A DNA stretch of 64,000 nucleotides from Streptosporangium becharense (GTDB lineage Bacteria; Actinomycetota; Actinomycetes; Streptosporangiales; Streptosporangiaceae), in contig NZ_JACHMP010000001.1 in the NCBI RefSeq assembly GCF_014204985.1, positions 7,006,001 through 7,070,000 on the forward strand, given 5' to 3'. The position numbers were made by a program, and so were the translations under genes. Of this stretch, positions 35,104-42,318 are shown in pieces (position 1 is the stretch's first letter; every line of letters starts with the position of its first letter). The notes under the pieces are model-generated. The model was not told where the DNA came from, made no database searches, and saw nothing but the letters and a program-made list of their open reading frames with translations.

Positions 35104-35141
35104 TGAGAACGTTCTCATTCAGATTACTGAGAACGTTCTCA
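35104..35141. promoter_or_regulatory. Twin LacI-type operators TGAGAACGTTCTCA
   Basis: The perfect palindrome TGAGAACGTTCTCA occurs at 35104-35117 and again at 35128-35141, 24 bp centre to centre. The second copy ends ten bases before the SIS start codon and should block its promoter or ribosome entry. The AACGTT core with a central CG step is typical of LacI-family operators. Confidence 0.88.
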
Positions 35142-35151
35142 ATGGAGTGAG

Positions 35152-36213
35152 ATGGCACCCGCAGCACCCGGAACCCCGAACCCGGCCGTCCGCGCCCCGC
35201 GCCCCGTGGAGGCCGACTTCCTGCCCACCCTCGACCACGCGCTGGCGCAGCGCGCCACGATCGGGGCCTTCGTCGGCGACGTCCTGGCCGACGGGATCAG
35301 CGACGTCTTCTTCCTCGGCTGCGGCGGCTCCTACGCCTCCAGCGTCCACGCCGCCACCACCCTCGCCGACCGCGTCGGCGGCCTGGCCGTGCACAACCTC
35401 TTCAGCACCGACGTGGCCGCGACGGCGCCGGCGCGGCTCGGCCCCCGCTCCCTCGTGATCGCCTCGGCGCACTCCGGCGCGACCCCCGAGACGGTCGCCG
35501 CCACCAAGGCCGCGCGGCAGGCCGGCGCGAAGGTGATCTCGCTGTCCCAGCGGGCCGACTCCCCCCTCGGCAGGCTGGCCGACCTGGCGCTCGACTACCG
35601 CAGCGAGCGCACCATCACCTCGGCCAAGCAGATCCTGCTCTCCCACATCACCTGGGCCCTGCTGGAGGGCGGCGGCGATACGCCCGCCGAGACGGCCGCC
35701 GCCGTCCGCGAGGCGTACGACGCGCTGCCGGGTGCGCTGCGCGCGAGCCTGGACGAGGCCGACGAGAAGCTGGGCCGTGTCGCCGCCGACCTGGCCGCGA
35801 GCCCGTTCGTCTTCGTCCTCGGGGCCGGCCCCACCTTCGGCGCCGCCTACCTGCTGTCCATGTGCTATCTCATGGAGATGCAGTGGAAGCGCTCGGCGTC
35901 CTTCCGGGCCGGCGAGTTCTTCCACGGCGCGTTCGAGATGGTCGAGGGCGACGCGGGTGTCATCACCTTCGTCGGTGAAGACCTCACCCGCCCGGCCGCC
36001 GAGCGGGCCGCCAGGTTCGCCGGCCGCTACACCGCCCACGCGCACCACGTCGACTCCCGAGACCTCACCCTGCCCGGCGTCCCGCCGGTGCTGCGCGCTG
36101 AGGTCGCCCCGATCGCCCTCGGCGTCCTCGCCGGCAGGCTCGCCGAGCACTTCGAGGCCGTCACCGGCCACTCCCTCGACGAACGCCGTTACATGTACAA
36201 GGTCGACTACTGA
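35152..36213 (+). CDS. SIS-domain fructosamine-phosphate deglycase-like protein (FrlB-like)
   Basis: This 353-residue protein has two SIS domains, as in glucosamine-6-phosphate deaminase-like enzymes. Markers are LGCGGSYASS (about 54-63) and SAHSGATPETV (about 105-115) in the first domain and GRYTAHAHHVD later. The C-terminus (RRYMYKVDY) resembles fructoselysine-6-phosphate deglycase FrlB. It would split a phosphorylated Amadori product into amine and sugar phosphate. It is governed by twin LacI operators. Its TGA stop is the first three bases of an IS terminus, so any partner genes (kinase, transporter) that once followed have been cut off or displaced. Confidence 0.88.
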   Translation: MAPAAPGTPNPAVRAPRPVEADFLPTLDHALAQRATIGAFVGDVLADGISDVFFLGCGGSYASSVHAATTLADRVGGLAVHNLFSTDVAATAPARLGPRSLVIASAHSGATPETVAATKAARQAGAKVISLSQRADSPLGRLADLALDYRSERTITSAKQILLSHITWALLEGGGDTPAETAAAVREAYDALPGALRASLDEADEKLGRVAADLAASPFVFVLGAGPTFGAAYLLSMCYLMEMQWKRSASFRAGEFFHGAFEMVEGDAGVITFVGEDLTRPAAERAARFAGRYTAHAHHVDSRDLTLPGVPPVLRAEVAPIALGVLAGRLAEHFEAVTGHSLDERRYMYKVDY

Positions 36214-36228
36214 GCCTTTTTCATCCTG
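36209..36228. repeat. 20-bp direct repeat, copy 1 (IS terminus)
   Basis: ACTGAGCCTTTTTCATCCTG occurs here and at 40415-40434 in the same orientation. The two copies bracket the terpene/P450 island. It is the 3' terminus of an IS5-type element. Confidence 0.92.
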
Positions 36229-36345
36229 TGCAGCGCTCGTCTTCGAGGGCTTGCAGGACGAGGACGGCCTGCAGGACGGCGGTGGGGTGGTGGGGTGGTG
36301 GGGGCTGCAGCGGAGCTTCGGCAAAAGCTTCCACGCTTCCGGGGG
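36209..36345 (-). mobile_element. 3' end fragment of an IS5-type (DDE_4) insertion sequence
   Basis: On the minus strand this stretch encodes the C-terminal tail of an IS5-like transposase (AWKLLPKLRCSP, then in a shifted frame AVLQAVLVLQALEDE and stop). The stop codon lies within the terminal sequence whose plus-strand form is ACTGAGCCTTTTTCATCCTG (36209-36228). A frameshift in a CCCCACCA repeat separates the two pieces. The rest of the gene is missing here; the middle part of a similar transposase lies at 40435-40735. Confidence 0.75.
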
Positions 36346-36409
36346 CCGATGGCGTGTTCGCCGAGGGCCCGGATACGGGCGTGGGCACGGTTGACGTTCT
36401 TCCGGCCGC

Positions 36410-37027
36410 GACGACACCACCCGCCGCAGCCGCCGCAAGAGCGCCAACCTGCCCAACGGCAAGACCTTCGAGTCCTGAAAGAGCGAGCTGTCGTCCATCC
36501 CGCAGGCCACCCGGAACGCCCTGCGCACCCCGGAACGGATCAGCCGCCGAGAGAAGTGCGTGATCTCCGGCCCGTCCGGCACCGGCAGGCCTGACTTCAT
36601 GGAAGCCCTCTGTCACGAGGCCATCGACGCCGACCTGCGCGTGTCCCGGTTCCCCCTGGAAACCCTGGCCGTCACCATCGGCCGCGCCGAAGCCGACAGC
36701 GGCGTCGCCCGGACCATCGCCAGGATCTGCCGCTCCGACATCGTCGTGGTCGACGGCATCGGCCTGCCGCCGGTAAGCCACGAGACCGCCGAAGCCTTCT
36801 ACCGCTTGGTGGACGCCGCTTACGAACGCGGCGGCCTCGCCGTCACCAGCGACATCCATCCCTCCGGCTTCGACGCGATCATGCCCGAGACCGTGGCCAC
36901 TGCCACCGTCGACCGCCTCATGCACCGCGTTCACATGGTCGAGACCGGCGGCGAGTCCCGCCGCCTGGCCAAGGCATTGGCCGGGAAGGGACGGGAAGGG
37001 AATCGTCCCCTCGATGTGATCGGCTGA
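36410..37027 (+). pseudogene. istB: istB-like IS21 helper ATPase, interrupted by one in-frame stop
   Basis: In one frame this encodes an IstB-family ATPase fragment: RRKSANLPNGKTFES, a TGA at 36476-36478, then KSELSSIP, a Walker A region read as GPSGTGRPD (the Lys is lost), DIVVVDGIGL as Walker B, VTSDIHPSGFD and ATATVDRLMHRVHM. The stop replaces a position that is usually Trp in this family, consistent with a TGG to TGA change. The N-terminus and the partner istA are missing. It is clearly a dead IS21 relic. Confidence 0.85.
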
Positions 37028-37104
37028 TGACCTCAGTCGGGACTCACGGTCGTGACCGTCGTCCATCCTCCCTCACGGCCGCCTACCGGCATTTCCGCTG
37101 ACCG

Positions 37105-37374
37105 TCAGACCGCACTGCGGTGACCGTCCAGCAGCAGATCATCCCGTCCGTCCACAATCTGATGCGGACAGGTATCGGGCCGGTGCGTGCGGTCAGCCAG
37201 GTCGCCGCCGCGATACCGACGCATCCCACGTGTGCACCGACTGCCGCGCACCCCGTCCCGCTCGATGACCTTGGTCACCGGACACCCCGCTTCCACTTCC
37301 GACACAGCGCGATACCGCTGCTCCACGACGCTCAGCTCCACCAGCGCCGACCCGCACCCCCATGTGATCGCCAC
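37105..37374 (-). pseudogene. N-terminal fragment of an IS481-family transposase
   Basis: The minus strand encodes ELSVVEQRYRAVSEVEAG, PVTKVIERDGV and then RYRGGDLADRTHRPDTCPHQ, the helix-turn-helix start of IS481-type transposases. The DDE catalytic domain is absent, so it is a truncated relic. Confidence 0.8.
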
Positions 37375-37864
37375 CGATCACATGAAAGGCAGGTCAACCG
37401 ACGGGGTGAATGTCTGCTGAGGCCGCCGCGTCAGGCGTCGATCGAGACGGGACAACAGGCCGACGCGGCCACTCCAAGAACTTCACATATGCTTTCAAAT
37501 TTCTTCCAGTCAGCCGCAAGGGTGCCCTCATAAAATAACTGCGCTATTCGCCCGTCACTCCACGAGTATTTGTTCGGATGATTCACGAGAAGTCGAGATC
37601 TTTTGAATCGGTCGCAGGATTATTATCTTCAAGGCGTGCCGAGAGACCGGTTCCGCACCCGCATGTCCGCCGCACTTTCGGCGCCATGCGGAAGCCTCAG
37701 TGCTCAACTGAATCTGAATGCTCGAAATGGTTCGACGAGCTGGTCGGCGGCCGGGGGCCGCCGACTGAATTGGCTACACGGCTCCGGAACGGGATGATCG
37801 AGTTCACGGAAGCAAAGAGAACAGACCGAAGTCGATCGGAAACCACAAGACGGAGGATCGATCA
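37375..37864. other. AT-richer leader region upstream of the P450 gene
   Basis: About 490 bases without a convincing gene. The stretch 37480-37640 is the most AT-rich part of the island (runs such as ATTATTATCTTC) and is the likely promoter zone of the P450-terpene synthase pair. A short open frame (37603-37797, 64 codons) shows no homology that I recognise. Confidence 0.5.
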
Positions 37865-39259
37865 GTGTCAAGCACGCATGCAGGCTCGACGGCCGCCAGT
37901 GGAAAGCCAATTCTCAAGAGCGTGCCCAGGCTCAGCCTCAGGGAGAACCTGGCCGCCGTATCCGCCATCCGGCGCGACCAGCTGGAGTTCATGCAAAACG
38001 CGGTGCGGAACCACGGGGACATCTTTCACATGCGCCTCGGCGGACTCCCGATGATCATGGTGAATCATCCCGACCACTTCCAGCGCGTCCTGGTTGACAA
38101 CCACCCGAACTACGACAAAGACAACTTCCTCTACCGTGCGGTGCGTAGCGTTCTCCGGGAAGGGCTCATCGGAAACATCGGAGGTGAGTCATGGCGTCAT
38201 CACCGTCGACTGATGCAACCCTCCTTCCATCGCTCGCGGGTAGCCGATTTCGTAGTGAACATCACCGACCTCACCGCGGAGCTGTTTCGGAGATGGGAGT
38301 CCCAGCTGTATGTCGACGACCTCGTGGACGTGACAACGGAAATCGCCGACCTGGCCCTGAGGATCGTGCTGCGCTCTCTGTTCGGCGTTGACATGGACGA
38401 GCGCAGCAGGAAATTCGCCGAGGAGTTCGTGGAGGTAAATACCATTGTAGGGGATTTTTTCCGGTTCCCCTTCCCGCCGCTGAGCTGGCGGACTCCCTCC
38501 CGGAATCGGCTGCGAACCCTCATCAAGGAGATGGACGGCTTCGTCTCGCACCTGATCCAAGCGCGAACAAGTGACGACAGCGAGCGGAACGATCTGTTCA
38601 CGCGGCTGCTCAACGCGAGAGATGCGAAGACCGGGACCGGGCTCACTCCCGGCCAGCTCGCCAACGAGATTTTGGCGATGATCGTGGCCGGCTATGAGAC
38701 GTCCAGTAACTCCATCTCCTGGATCTTCTATCAGCTCGCAGAGCATCAAGAGATCCAAAGGCGCGTACAGGACGAGGTGGACGACGTATTGGGCGGTCGC
38801 CCTCCAACCTTCGACGATCTCCCAAAACTGACGTATACCGGAATGGTCATCGACGAGACGCTCCGTCTGTTCACCCCGGCCTGGCACACGATGCGGCACG
38901 CAATAGAGGAGGATGTGATCGGCGGATATCACATCCCGAAGGGCAGCAACATATATCTGAACCTGTTCATCTATCATCGGCACCCCGACTTCTGGCCGGA
39001 ACCGACACGCTTCAATCCCGAACGCTTCTCCCCGGAGGAGGTCGCAAAGCGCCCCCGTAACCTCTACCAGCCCTACGGGAGCGGACCGCGCTTGTGCATC
39101 GGAAAGCACTTCGCTCAGGCGGAGCTCCTCATCATGGCTGCGATGTTCGCTCAAACCTTCCATGTCACCAGGCCGCAGGGTCAGCCTCCCGTCGGTTTCG
39201 CCCCCTTGATCACGCTGCACCCCAAGGGGGGAATACACCTTCGGCTGCGTCGCCGCTGA
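37865..39259 (+). CDS. Cytochrome P450, partner of the terpene synthase
   Basis: This 464-residue soluble P450 has all core motifs: C-helix WRHHRRLMQP (110-119), I-helix oxygen motif AGYETSS (275-281), K-helix ETLR (331-334) and the heme loop with Cys411 (PYGSGPRLCIG). The normally invariant Phe seven residues before the Cys is Tyr404. GTG 37865 follows GGAGG at eight bases. The terpene synthase gene starts 41 bp after its stop on the same strand, so it most likely oxidises the terpene product, as CYP170 and PtlI-type enzymes do. It needs ferredoxin and reductase from elsewhere. Hand-counted G+C of a 60-base sample is 57%, well below the 70% or more of nearby chromosomal genes. Confidence 0.95.
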   Translation: MSSTHAGSTAASGKPILKSVPRLSLRENLAAVSAIRRDQLEFMQNAVRNHGDIFHMRLGGLPMIMVNHPDHFQRVLVDNHPNYDKDNFLYRAVRSVLREGLIGNIGGESWRHHRRLMQPSFHRSRVADFVVNITDLTAELFRRWESQLYVDDLVDVTTEIADLALRIVLRSLFGVDMDERSRKFAEEFVEVNTIVGDFFRFPFPPLSWRTPSRNRLRTLIKEMDGFVSHLIQARTSDDSERNDLFTRLLNARDAKTGTGLTPGQLANEILAMIVAGYETSSNSISWIFYQLAEHQEIQRRVQDEVDDVLGGRPPTFDDLPKLTYTGMVIDETLRLFTPAWHTMRHAIEEDVIGGYHIPKGSNIYLNLFIYHRHPDFWPEPTRFNPERFSPEEVAKRPRNLYQPYGSGPRLCIGKHFAQAELLIMAAMFAQTFHVTRPQGQPPVGFAPLITLHPKGGIHLRLRRR

Positions 39260-39300
39260 CTCCGCATGAGACCCGGTGCAGCTGAGCTCCTGCGCCTTCC

Positions 39301-40371
39301 ATGCGACATGGATCCCTTTTGTCGTCCACGAGCAGAATAAGACCGGAAATCATCGTGACTGATTATTTAGCCGACATACTCTGCCCCTTCCCGTTCCAGC
39401 TGAATCCACGAGTGGAAACTGCTCGCAAGCACCTCGACGAATGGGTGGGTGTTAGAAATCTCGTACGGCGCGAATCCGCCAGGATACGGTTTGATCGGGC
39501 GGACTTCGGCTGGTTTGTCGCAGTGGTTCATCCCACCGCCGATGCTGAGCGACTGGCTTTGATGGCGGACTGGTTCGCCTGGCTGTTCCTGGTGGATGAC
39601 CAACTCGACGACGGTGATGTGGGACGGAGGCTGGAGCAGGTCGGAGAGGTGTTCGTCGGCATGCGCGAGGTGCTGGAAAGCCCCGACTTCGGGGCCGCCA
39701 TCGCCAGACGCACTGATATCCCGACTGCCGTTTCCGCGCTCGCCGACCTGTGGCAGCGCACTGCCCGGGAGGCCACTCCCCAATGGAGACGCCGGTTCGT
39801 GCAACACCTCGACTCCTGCCTCACGACGGCCGCTACATGGGAGGCCGGGAACAGAGTCAGAGGAATCGTTCCCACGGAGGAGACATACATCGTCAATCGT
39901 CGGCACACCGGCGCCATATATGTATGCATGGATTTCATCGAGATTGTCGAACGCATCGACATGCCCGACCATATATACAAGAGTCCGCAATTCATTGGAA
40001 CGCTGGACGCGGCCTGCAACGTCGTATGCTGGACAAATGATGTGTTCTCGCTCGAAAAGGAACGATCTCGGGGTGAGATCCACAACCTCGTGTACGTGGT
40101 GCAGCACCATCAGGGGATAAGCCAGGACGAGGCGCTGCGCAAGGTCTGCAACACCATTTCTGTGGAGACCGAACTGTTCATGGAGCGAGAAAGGGAGCTC
40201 CTCCGCACCTACACGGAGCATTCGGAGACGCTCCTCGCCTACCTCGCGGGAATGCGCACGTGGATGCGCGGAAACCTCGACTGGTCCAGTCGGACAAAGC
40301 GTTATCAGTCAATAGATTACGCGGGCGAAGTCCAGCCGGGAGACTACCTGGAATCCACCCTCATGGGCTGA
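39301..40371 (+). CDS. Class I terpene synthase (sesqui- or diterpene cyclase)
   Basis: This protein has up to 356 residues with the full bacterial class I terpene cyclase signature: the acidic metal motif D99-D100-Q-L-D103-D104, the pyrophosphate-sensor Arg pair near 200-201, the NSE triad N246/S250/E254 (NDVFSLEKE) and the C-terminal RY pair R334-Y335. FPFQLNPRVE near the start is also typical. It should ionise and cyclise a linear prenyl diphosphate, most likely farnesyl or geranylgeranyl diphosphate. Product cannot be told from sequence. ATG 39301 or a GTG at 39355 may be the real start; neither has a strong ribosome-binding site. Lower G+C (about 60% in a sampled line) and IS debris on both sides point to transfer. 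Confidence 0.95.
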   Translation: MRHGSLLSSTSRIRPEIIVTDYLADILCPFPFQLNPRVETARKHLDEWVGVRNLVRRESARIRFDRADFGWFVAVVHPTADAERLALMADWFAWLFLVDDQLDDGDVGRRLEQVGEVFVGMREVLESPDFGAAIARRTDIPTAVSALADLWQRTAREATPQWRRRFVQHLDSCLTTAATWEAGNRVRGIVPTEETYIVNRRHTGAIYVCMDFIEIVERIDMPDHIYKSPQFIGTLDAACNVVCWTNDVFSLEKERSRGEIHNLVYVVQHHQGISQDEALRKVCNTISVETELFMERERELLRTYTEHSETLLAYLAGMRTWMRGNLDWSSRTKRYQSIDYAGEVQPGDYLESTLMG

Positions 40372-40414
40372 AACCTTACATGCCACGGGACGCGCCGACG
40401 GACAGGCTGCCTCA

Positions 40415-40434
40415 ACTGAGCCTTTTTCATCCTG
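40415..40434. repeat. 20-bp direct repeat, copy 2 (IS terminus)
   Basis: This is identical to 36209-36228 and in the same orientation. It lies 43 bp after the terpene synthase stop codon and joins directly to a transposase fragment. Confidence 0.92.
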
Positions 40435-40735
40435 CCAGGGCGGAATCGACTGGTCGTCGCGACACCTCCATTCTCGAGGAGATCGGCGAAGGTCAGCACG
40501 CCGTCGGCCGTCAGGGCGTCGATCAGGCCCGCCGTGCGGGCTGCGATCAGGTCGTGCACCGCCCCGGTAGGAGTGGGAGAGGCCCGGACCCGGCGGCCGA
40601 CGGGGCCGGCGAGGACCTGGACGGTCGTCCTGTGGCGCTTGTGCTTGCCGGAGTAGTACGGCTTGTGGCCGGCGACGGGGACGAGGGTGCCTCCGGTCGC
40701 CCGTCCCTGCCGGACGCAAGTGGTCCGCAAGTGAT
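40415..40735 (-). mobile_element. Truncated IS5-type (DDE_4) transposase remnant
   Basis: The minus strand encodes HKPYYSGKHKRH, VQVLAGPVGRRVRASP, GAVHDLIAARTAGLIDAL and VLTFAD, the middle of an IS5-like DDE transposase. The N-terminal helix-turn-helix and the C-terminal third are missing, and the frame then joins abruptly to the 3' terminus at 40415. It could be the other half of the element whose tail lies at 36209-36345, or a separate copy. Confidence 0.82.
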
Positions 40736-40799
40736 CGGCGCCAGACTCGGGCGGTCGGACAGGCCCGTCGCGGCGGGTCGAGCGCAGTGGAAGGGGACC

Positions 40800-41198
40800 A
40801 TGACCGTGTCGCGGAGTGAGCCCGAAGACGAGCCCTTCATTCCCGCAAGGCTCCGTGACCCCGCCGACGATCCGCCACCGCCGCCGGCTCCGCCGATGAA
40901 CCGCTGGGTCCGTCTCGCCCTGATGGTGCTCCTGCTCGTCATCTTCGCCGCAGTGGTGGGGGTCTCCCTGCGGGGGGTGCGCTTCTCCTCCTCGTCATCC
41001 GGAGAGGAGAGGGCCCGGTGCGTGGACACGAGCTCGCAACAGTCCGACGGCACACATCTGGTCGTCGACGACCGTAACTGTGAGAGCGGGGGCGACGAGG
41101 CCGGCCGCCGTTACCGCTGGGAGGGCACCGGCTCCTCGGACGGCCTCGGCCGCTCGGTTCTGGAACTGATCCGGGAGTTGCTGGACGGGCGCCGCTGA
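40800..41198 (+). CDS. Small single-span membrane protein
   Basis: This is a 132-residue protein with an acidic, Pro-rich cytoplasmic N-terminus (about 1-33), one membrane span (about 35-57, VRLALMVLLLVIFAAVVGV) and a Ser/Glu-rich extracellular tail with two Cys (CVDTSS and NCESGG). ATG 40800 follows AAGGGGACC. No family is recognised. It starts just beyond the IS remnant, so its promoter may lie in or next to IS sequence. Confidence 0.7.
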   Translation: MTVSRSEPEDEPFIPARLRDPADDPPPPPAPPMNRWVRLALMVLLLVIFAAVVGVSLRGVRFSSSSSGEERARCVDTSSQQSDGTHLVVDDRNCESGGDEAGRRYRWEGTGSSDGLGRSVLELIRELLDGRR

Positions 41199-41267
41199 AG
41201 GCTCCGCTTGCCGCCCGGCCGATGGCCGAGCGGCCGCCGGACGACGACACGCGGTCCTGGCGGTGTC

Positions 41268-41651
41268 TCAGGGAGCGGTCCGCGCGGCGCGCTGCGTGAG
41301 AGCCTCGTCCAGCAGGTGCCGCAGCTCATGGCCTTCGATGAGAGCCGAGTCCGGCGTCTTGCCGTACTCGAGCCGCGAGAGCACCCAGATCTCCGTGCGG
41401 CCCAGTTCCTCCGCGGTGTGTTCATCGAGCTCCGGAGGGATGTCATCCGGCTGCTCGGCCCGGTAGGCCACGAAGAAGTCCGGAATATTCATTCCGTCGC
41501 CCTCGGGGGAGAAACGCTCCGCGAAGTCCTCGACGGGAGGACGTTTGTAGATGTTCTCCAACGAGAGGGCACAGCTCACGAAGTCACCGATGACCTTGAG
41601 CGGGTCGTCGGTCACCTTGTAGGTGAAGTTTTCAAGGCGAACGGTGCGCAT
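41268..41651 (-). CDS. Hypothetical acidic protein
   Basis: This is a 127-residue soluble, acidic protein (VRLENFTYKVTDDPLKVIGDFV at the start, PPELDEHTAEELG later). I do not recognise a family. It is divergent from trpF with a 67-bp spacer between the start codons. The ATG at 41651 gives a natural N-terminus; longer readings run into the trpF gene region in another frame. Confidence 0.65.
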   Translation of the reverse strand: MRTVRLENFTYKVTDDPLKVIGDFVSCALSLENIYKRPPVEDFAERFSPEGDGMNIPDFFVAYRAEQPDDIPPELDEHTAEELGRTEIWVLSRLEYGKTPDSALIEGHELRHLLDEALTQRAARTAP

Positions 41652-41718: not shown

Positions 41719-42318
41719 GTGTACGTGAAGATCTGCGGGCTGCGCGAGCCCGAGCATGTGACGGCCGCCGTGGAGGTGGGTGCGGACGCCGTCGGTTTCG
41801 TCCTGACCAGGAGCCCGCGGCGGATCACCCCCGCGCTGGCGCGCGAGCTGGCCGCGGCGGTTCCCCCGCACGTGCTGACCGTGGCGGTCTTCGCCGGTGA
41901 GAGCACCGAGGAGGTCCGGGCGGTCACGGCGGAGGCGGGGGTGCGCGCCGTGCAGCTCCACGGCGACCATCCGCACGCCGACTTCGTCGCGTTGAAGGAC
42001 CTCGGCGTCACGCTGGTGCGGGCCGGGGCCGCGGCCGGTGACCTGCGCTGCGGCGCCTACGACGAGGATCTGCTCATCGTCGACGCTCCCAGGCCGGGCT
42101 CGGGGGAGCCGTGGGACTGGGCGGCGGTGCGCGGGCGCCCGGAGGGCCGCTGGATGCTCGCCGGCGGTCTGGACCCGTCGAACGTGGCCGGAGCCGTCGC
42201 CGCCGCCCGGCCGTGGGGGGTCGACGTGTCGAGCGGCGTGGAGGTCGCACCCGGGGTGAAGGACTCCGGACTGATCAGGGACTTCGTCGCCGCCGCCCGC
42301 GGGACCGCCGCCGGCTGA
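41719..42318 (+). CDS. trpF: Phosphoribosylanthranilate isomerase
   Basis: This 199-residue TIM barrel catalyses the Amadori rearrangement of N-(5'-phosphoribosyl)anthranilate in tryptophan synthesis. The family start VKICGLREPEHV (catalytic Cys near residue 6), VGFVLTRSPRRI, AVQLHGDHP, a strand with the catalytic Asp (LLIVDAP) and the phosphate-binding ends AGGLDPSNV and DVSSGVE are all in order. Length is normal. It stands apart from other trp genes, which is common in actinobacteria. Start is GTG 41719. Confidence 0.96.
   Translation: MYVKICGLREPEHVTAAVEVGADAVGFVLTRSPRRITPALARELAAAVPPHVLTVAVFAGESTEEVRAVTAEAGVRAVQLHGDHPHADFVALKDLGVTLVRAGAAAGDLRCGAYDEDLLIVDAPRPGSGEPWDWAAVRGRPEGRWMLAGGLDPSNVAGAVAAARPWGVDVSSGVEVAPGVKDSGLIRDFVAAARGTAAG

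Follow-up and report, generated by a model that had tools for sequence, protein, structure and literature searches.

How did a cytochrome P450 gene and a terpene synthase gene come to lie between two identical 20-bp repeats in the genome of Streptosporangium becharense? We analyzed this question in a stretch of 64,000 bp (the window; positions 7,006,001 to 7,070,000 of contig NZ_JACHMP010000001.1, G000:C1:7006001-7070000 in our genome set), for which a first-pass annotation had proposed a terpene cassette bracketed by insertion sequence (IS) ends. Coordinates refer to the window unless a contig is named. With a probability of about 70%, we read the locus as a horizontally acquired minimal terpene cluster, consisting of a P450 and a class I terpene synthase, which lies in the scar of decayed IS elements downstream of a SIS-domain gene.

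The 20-bp repeat consists of an IS5-type end and its target

As the first-pass annotation had stated, the 20-mer is present in two exact copies in direct orientation, at 36209–36228 and 40415–40434 on the plus strand, and none of 100 shuffled sequences yielded two matches at three or fewer mismatches. In the whole 7.82-Mb genome (two contigs), a search allowing up to two mismatches returned the two exact copies and one further place with two mismatches (G000:C1:5351857; positions 1501–1520 of locus L003), a lone IS-end-like sequence around which inspection, by eye only, recognised no transposase.

The fetched loci include 17 elements whose two inverted ends lie 780–1050 bp apart, four of them in a single genome (G138); these copies were selected for having two inverted ends. 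They are 883–926 bp long, their inverted ends measure 17 bp, and their flanks show an exact 3-bp duplication in 12/17 cases (in the form ANT in 10) and none in 5. For example, three 913-bp copies in G138 carry the 17-bp repeat inverted at both ends, with one mismatch at one end. Since these two-ended relatives show inverted ends, mostly with 3-bp duplications, the 20-mer is by comparison the 3-bp target ACT followed by the 17-bp inverted end GAGCCTTTTTCATCCTG of an approximately 0.9-kb IS5-type element, and an anonymous 20-bp repeat is now identified as the end of a known kind of element. By length, inverted ends and mostly ANT-shaped duplications, the two-ended relatives resemble the IS5 family, presumably its ISL2-like group, for which ANT duplications are characteristic. 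Unlike such elements, both copies in the window are fragments without a working transposase. ACT adjoins each right end, only right ends remain, and a left inverted repeat was not found within 35900–41400 at up to six mismatches.

The right-hand fragment has relatives in 62 records of a plasmid set of 72,556. Of 150 family genomes drawn from 341, 34 contain such relatives at E 1e-10, the own genome among them. With the left-hand query, matches came from 72 plasmid records, part of them to istB, into which this query extended. Streptomyces sp. 3211 and Alt1 have plasmids in which both parts seen in the window lie within a single element of about 0.9 kb. In addition, 31 of the 150 genomes, again counting the own one, contain a 19-base form of the IS end with at most one mismatch, and for this reason identical ends at both borders require no special event. 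The shortness of the 20-mer is the only point suggesting that the pair arose by chance or represents a generic repeat unrelated to the genes. Exactly two copies in 7.8 Mb, which also disposes of a common unrelated genomic repeat as considered in the first-pass annotation, the match to the ends of two-ended IS copies, and the absence of the reversed control pattern (0/150 genomes) leave this explanation with practically no credit; the two-ended elements refute it. The idea that the element targets stop codons was also considered and dropped, as the junctions of the 17 two-ended copies follow no consistent rule.

Two IS5-type fragments border the segment

The first ACT target (36209–36211), assigned from the target duplications of the two-ended relatives, is followed by an IS fragment on the minus strand (36212–36416) comprising the 17-bp right end and the C-terminal part of the transposase (residues 217–276, frameshifted). 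It was recognised by tblastn pieces and by 81.7% identity over 208 alignment columns to a copy in genome G102, and it extends to about 36416, beyond the end at 36345 given earlier. At about 36279–36305 this tail contains a GTGGTGGGG-type expansion, 8 alignment columns longer than in four other aligned copies. On the other side, the second ACT target with its 17-bp repeat (40415–40434, plus strand), identified by the 20-mer match and the two-ended relatives, precedes 47 bases (40435–40481) for which the fetched IS copies gave no informative match. The transposase middle (residues 100–192) occupies 40482–40739 on the minus strand, so that the body begins at 40482 and not at 40435 as first annotated. 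Its assignment is based on DNA alignment, tblastn and a weak NCBIfam match (IS5_4, E 1.3e-4, 21.5 bits at a cut-off of 140); it shares 88.6% identity with a copy in genome G133 (202 bp) and 83.1% with the G102 copy (201 bp), and lacks residues 1–99 and the left inverted repeat. Only these two stretches of an IS5-type DDE transposase are left, which marks them as decayed IS5 relics. Elsewhere in the genome, no further full copy of either IS-bearing stretch was found; the right one has three matches of 31–35 bp. Comparing the IS end plus 40435–40481, as a candidate inverted left end, by eye with the left ends of other copies revealed no resemblance, and this candidate was rejected.

One possible explanation, also offered by the first-pass annotation, is that a single IS5-type copy behind the SIS gene was split into tail and body by the inserted foreign segment. 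In keeping with this, the fragments lie in order and in one orientation, do not overlap, and are both nearest to the G102 and G133 copies, which come from two genomes of a single genus. In the reference copy L213 (G102; = L205), the transposase frame is open over 276 residues, and no left repeat was found at up to four mismatches. Against this copy, the left fragment corresponds to locus bases 501–699 (81.7%) and the right fragment to 768–968 (83.1%), and the 68 bp in between (700–767) are absent from both. A simple split explains neither this gap nor why a further complete terminal repeat stands at 40415, beside an ACT of its own and ahead of 47 bases of other origin. Moreover, the diagnostic sites disagree between the fragments. 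Sites separating L205 (G102) from L181 (G133) divide 18:4 in the tail and 1:12 in the body (Fisher p 4e-5), or 11:4 and 1:12 without the terminal repeat (p 6e-4); with L182, another G102 copy, in place of L205, the counts are 18:11 and 3:14 (p 0.005), all of them based on few reference copies. Overall identities to the G102 and G133 copies agree with these sites (82 vs 75% for the tail, 83 vs 89% for the body). We consider the splitting of a single copy a doubtful account. As the tail agrees better with one reference copy and the body with another, two separate copies are favored, not decisively, and two copies in the same orientation most probably flanked or entered the segment. One of them would have kept its right 0.2 kb; of the other, the right tip and the middle would remain.

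An intact P450–terpene synthase pair lies among further IS relics

The pair itself is intact, with open frames and catalytic motifs as first annotated. The P450 gene (37865–39259, plus strand) encodes 464 amino acids, matches Pfam p450 (E 5.5e-86), contains the motifs AGYETS, ETLR and YGSGPRLCIG, and groups with the type A P450s of terpene clusters. The synthase gene (39355–40371, plus strand; reading frame open from 39301) matches Terpene_syn_C_2 (E 3.2e-48) and has the motifs DDQLD, NDVFSLEKE and a C-terminal RY that characterize a class I enzyme. Its probable start is GTG at 39355, which is in frame with the listed start at 39301 and preferred to it because it better fits the N-termini of relatives. 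The synthase is predicted to act on farnesyl diphosphate by ionisation and cyclisation, with the P450 oxidising the resulting product, and the two probably form a pair that makes and oxidises a sesquiterpene.

For product prediction, no NCBIfam equivalog model reached its cut-off. The best models for the P450, pentalenene oxygenase and albaflavenone monooxygenase (NF045812 and NF051859), scored 232 and 231 bits, far under their cut-offs of 800 and 700 bits, which sets the P450 apart from both enzymes. The synthase scored 188 bits with the isoafricanol model and 167 bits with the delta-cadinene model (cut-offs 500 and 400). By sequence, its best PDB match is 9m25 (‘Terpene synthase’, 314 bits) with conserved motifs; a literature search turned up no paper on this structure. 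Relatives in the S. griseus group (52–57% identity to the synthase) are, presumably and as a guess only, possible epi-cubenol synthases.

Between the left IS5-type fragment and the pair lie relics of two other families, in agreement with the three IS families first annotated. An IS21 istB relic without its start (36402–37027, plus strand) is 71.6% identical at the DNA level to a Streptomyces plasmid over 590 bp, has other matches annotated as istB, and matches Pfam IstB_IS21 (E 2.9e-20) at profile positions 97–234 of 238. An IS481-type transposase relic (37105–37374, minus strand) was detected by a tblastn match (50.7%, E 3e-9) to a transposase annotated as IS481 family, in one of two plasmid records matched, and gave no match in the Pfam search. 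Both elements would likewise have inserted and then decayed.

The pair has an unusual composition and a patchy distribution

Next, we analyzed the base composition. The best two change-points (log-likelihood gain 73.7) delimit a low-G+C domain at about 37360–40485 (ranges 36965–37485 and 40375–40550), with 59.0% G+C vs 71.7% outside. The 4.2 kb of low G+C proposed earlier hold for this domain, but not for the left-hand IS relics, which at 0.67–0.70 (200-bp steps up to 37000) are near host composition. G+C at third codon positions is 0.77 in the P450 and 0.71 in the synthase gene vs 0.86–0.96 in eight neighboring genes and 0.84 in a small gene at 40800. In 11 related loci, the cluster stretch has 65–72% G+C, 1.3–5.0 points under its own flanks, and none is as low as the 59.5% in the window.

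Homologs of the synthase at E 1e-75 or better were found in 6/341 family genomes, the own one included. The best family match (G263, 64%) is Nonomuraea longispora, all 290 of 290 sampled 40-mers being common with locus L067; none of the 15 congeners reaches this threshold, and the best-scoring congener match is 30% identical. The closest named kin are Nocardia transvalensis (L065, 68%), Streptomyces sparsogenes (L064, 65%) and Nonomuraea longispora (L067, 65%). Unusual composition, patchy distribution and closest kin at 64–68% in Nonomuraea, Nocardia and Streptomyces together are the reason why the genes look horizontally acquired. For Streptomyces, trees have led to the inference that terpene synthase genes spread by transfer (PMC6604706). 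PMC12860625 describes a different Streptomyces cluster, and our literature searches returned nothing on this locus among the papers listed.

The related loci, taken as the best 80 of 133 relatives and some of them ending early, differ in their P450 content. A P450 passing the filter is present in 24/80: four contain P450-A, P450-B and synthase in a row (L064, L065, L068 and L069), two contain P450-A and synthase (Streptosporangium sp. KLBMP 9127 and Sphaerisporangium rufum), and 18 have B-clade P450s only, one of them two. The other 56/80 gave no P450 match, some being incomplete loci. In the window this row is not complete: it has only P450-A, 61–65% identical to the first of the two P450s in Nocardia transvalensis and S. 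sparsogenes, whereas Nonomuraea longispora has only P450-B. In trees of 35 of 81 synthases and of 30 P450s, the synthase pairs with that of Nonomuraea longispora (100/97), and the P450 falls inside the A clade (100/100), beside the Nocardia P450-A at weaker support (89/67). P450-B was not found elsewhere in the genome, the best match being P450-A itself (49%) and the next 38%. A relic of P450-B in the gap at 39260–39354 was rejected, since the sole matches, of eight related loci, fell on the synthase start. A recombination chimera of A and B was also rejected, as the A-type P450 is the best match in 11/12 alignment segments; the B-type leads at residues 201–240 (60 vs 55%), and at residues 121–160 B is ahead of A in two of four clusters. 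The simplest reading, not proven, is reciprocal loss from an ancestor with both P450s, in which the second P450 would have been lost here.

A second P450–synthase cluster lies just ahead of the window, about 38 kb away (G000:C1:6995803-7005971). Its synthase (7003537–7004487, 28% identical to that of the cassette) is flanked by P450s at 7001900–7003207 and 7004727–7005971, with a further P450 at 6995803–6997014.

The segment adjoins an intact SIS gene

The left border lies exactly at the end of a SIS-domain, sugar isomerase/deglycase-like gene (35152–36213, plus strand; Pfam SIS, E 5.3e-14). The T of its TGA stop stems from the IS target and the GA from the IS end. Six out of six fetched relatives (38–49% identical) stop right after the same residue; the gene is therefore, by this comparison, intact and not truncated. 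The gene following the SIS stop in these relatives is never an IS, and encodes a PfkB kinase in four, a HAD hydrolase in one and a LacI regulator in one, the last being 46% like the LacI of the window. In the window, the only part of the genome covered by this search, no match to the PfkB kinases L221 and L035 was found, and for this reason the SIS gene may have lost such a partner. The LacI-type and SIS genes are divergent, and the perfect palindrome TGAGAACGTTCTCA occurs twice in the region separating them (35104–35117 and 35128–35141), as a probable operator pair.

On the right, a putative trpF-like gene (41719–42318) is present in 15/16 genus genomes, 82–91% identical in the others and with different neighbors, indicating that the right flank itself is rearranged. 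Synteny around this gene, tried as an empty-site test in 14 regions, showed no other tested flank gene alongside at more than 60 bits, except for distant SDR paralogues in two, and the approach was set aside.

Route of entry

Could the segment have moved as a composite transposon? Here, two direct-repeat IS5-type copies would have carried the P450–synthase segment as a unit to the place after the SIS stop, and the right copy would have lost its left half later. Two right ends and two transposase fragments are seen, the ends being of the same type and orientation and each beside ACT; the genes in between look foreign, and the left outer end adjoins an intact gene precisely at its stop. However, no left repeat was found, so that terminal duplications are not comparable, and intact outer ends with a target duplication are lacking. 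The segment also encloses IS21 and IS481 relics, its low-G+C part starts only about 0.9 kb (0.55–1.07 kb) beyond the left IS relic, and the genome, searched with the IS-bearing ends and the synthase, has no second copy. Composite movement is thus an unlikely route. Of the proposal that the cassette moved as a composite or into a split IS, the acquired-looking pair, the same-type IS ends and the IS flanks stand; composite movement is not demonstrated, because the right-hand copy has no left part or left repeat and there are no outer ends to compare.

We favor horizontal acquisition of the pair, which now lies in a scar of decayed IS elements, with entry by recombination or transposition between such elements as the probable route. 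Several points weigh against it. Part of the low G+C may be typical of genes of this kind, the identity of the six SIS relatives is only 38–49%, and the order of IS decay and arrival of the pair is undated. In the 16 genus genomes, no syntenic empty site of the kind suggested by the first-pass annotation was found; neither SIS (best match among 15 congeners 39%) nor trpF keeps the same neighbors in the genus, and we infer the insertion for this reason rather than see it. With respect to the number of copies, any of the few reference copies from which the diagnostic sites derive may be a mosaic, the tail tree does not settle the position of the tail fragment, and the complementary fragments also fit a single split IS. 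Since there is no whole transposase and no full pair of ends, the IS remnants should be inert and the segment immobile by itself now. Altogether, the locus looks like an ordinary acquisition that is no longer mobile.

A more far-reaching history would be that a composite IS5/ISL2-type transposon once took the whole of a minimal terpene pathway from one actinobacterial family to another, and that the P450s retained afterwards differ among sister clusters: A is left here, B in Nonomuraea longispora and both in Nocardia transvalensis. We consider this improbable; if true, different products would have arisen from a single ancestral oxidised sesquiterpene through IS-linked transfer together with reciprocal loss of P450s. 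The locus is a concrete example of a probably acquired minimal terpene cluster next to IS ends that can be identified, and the natural set of clusters with P450-A, P450-B or both offers material for testing how the oxidation of the product changes.

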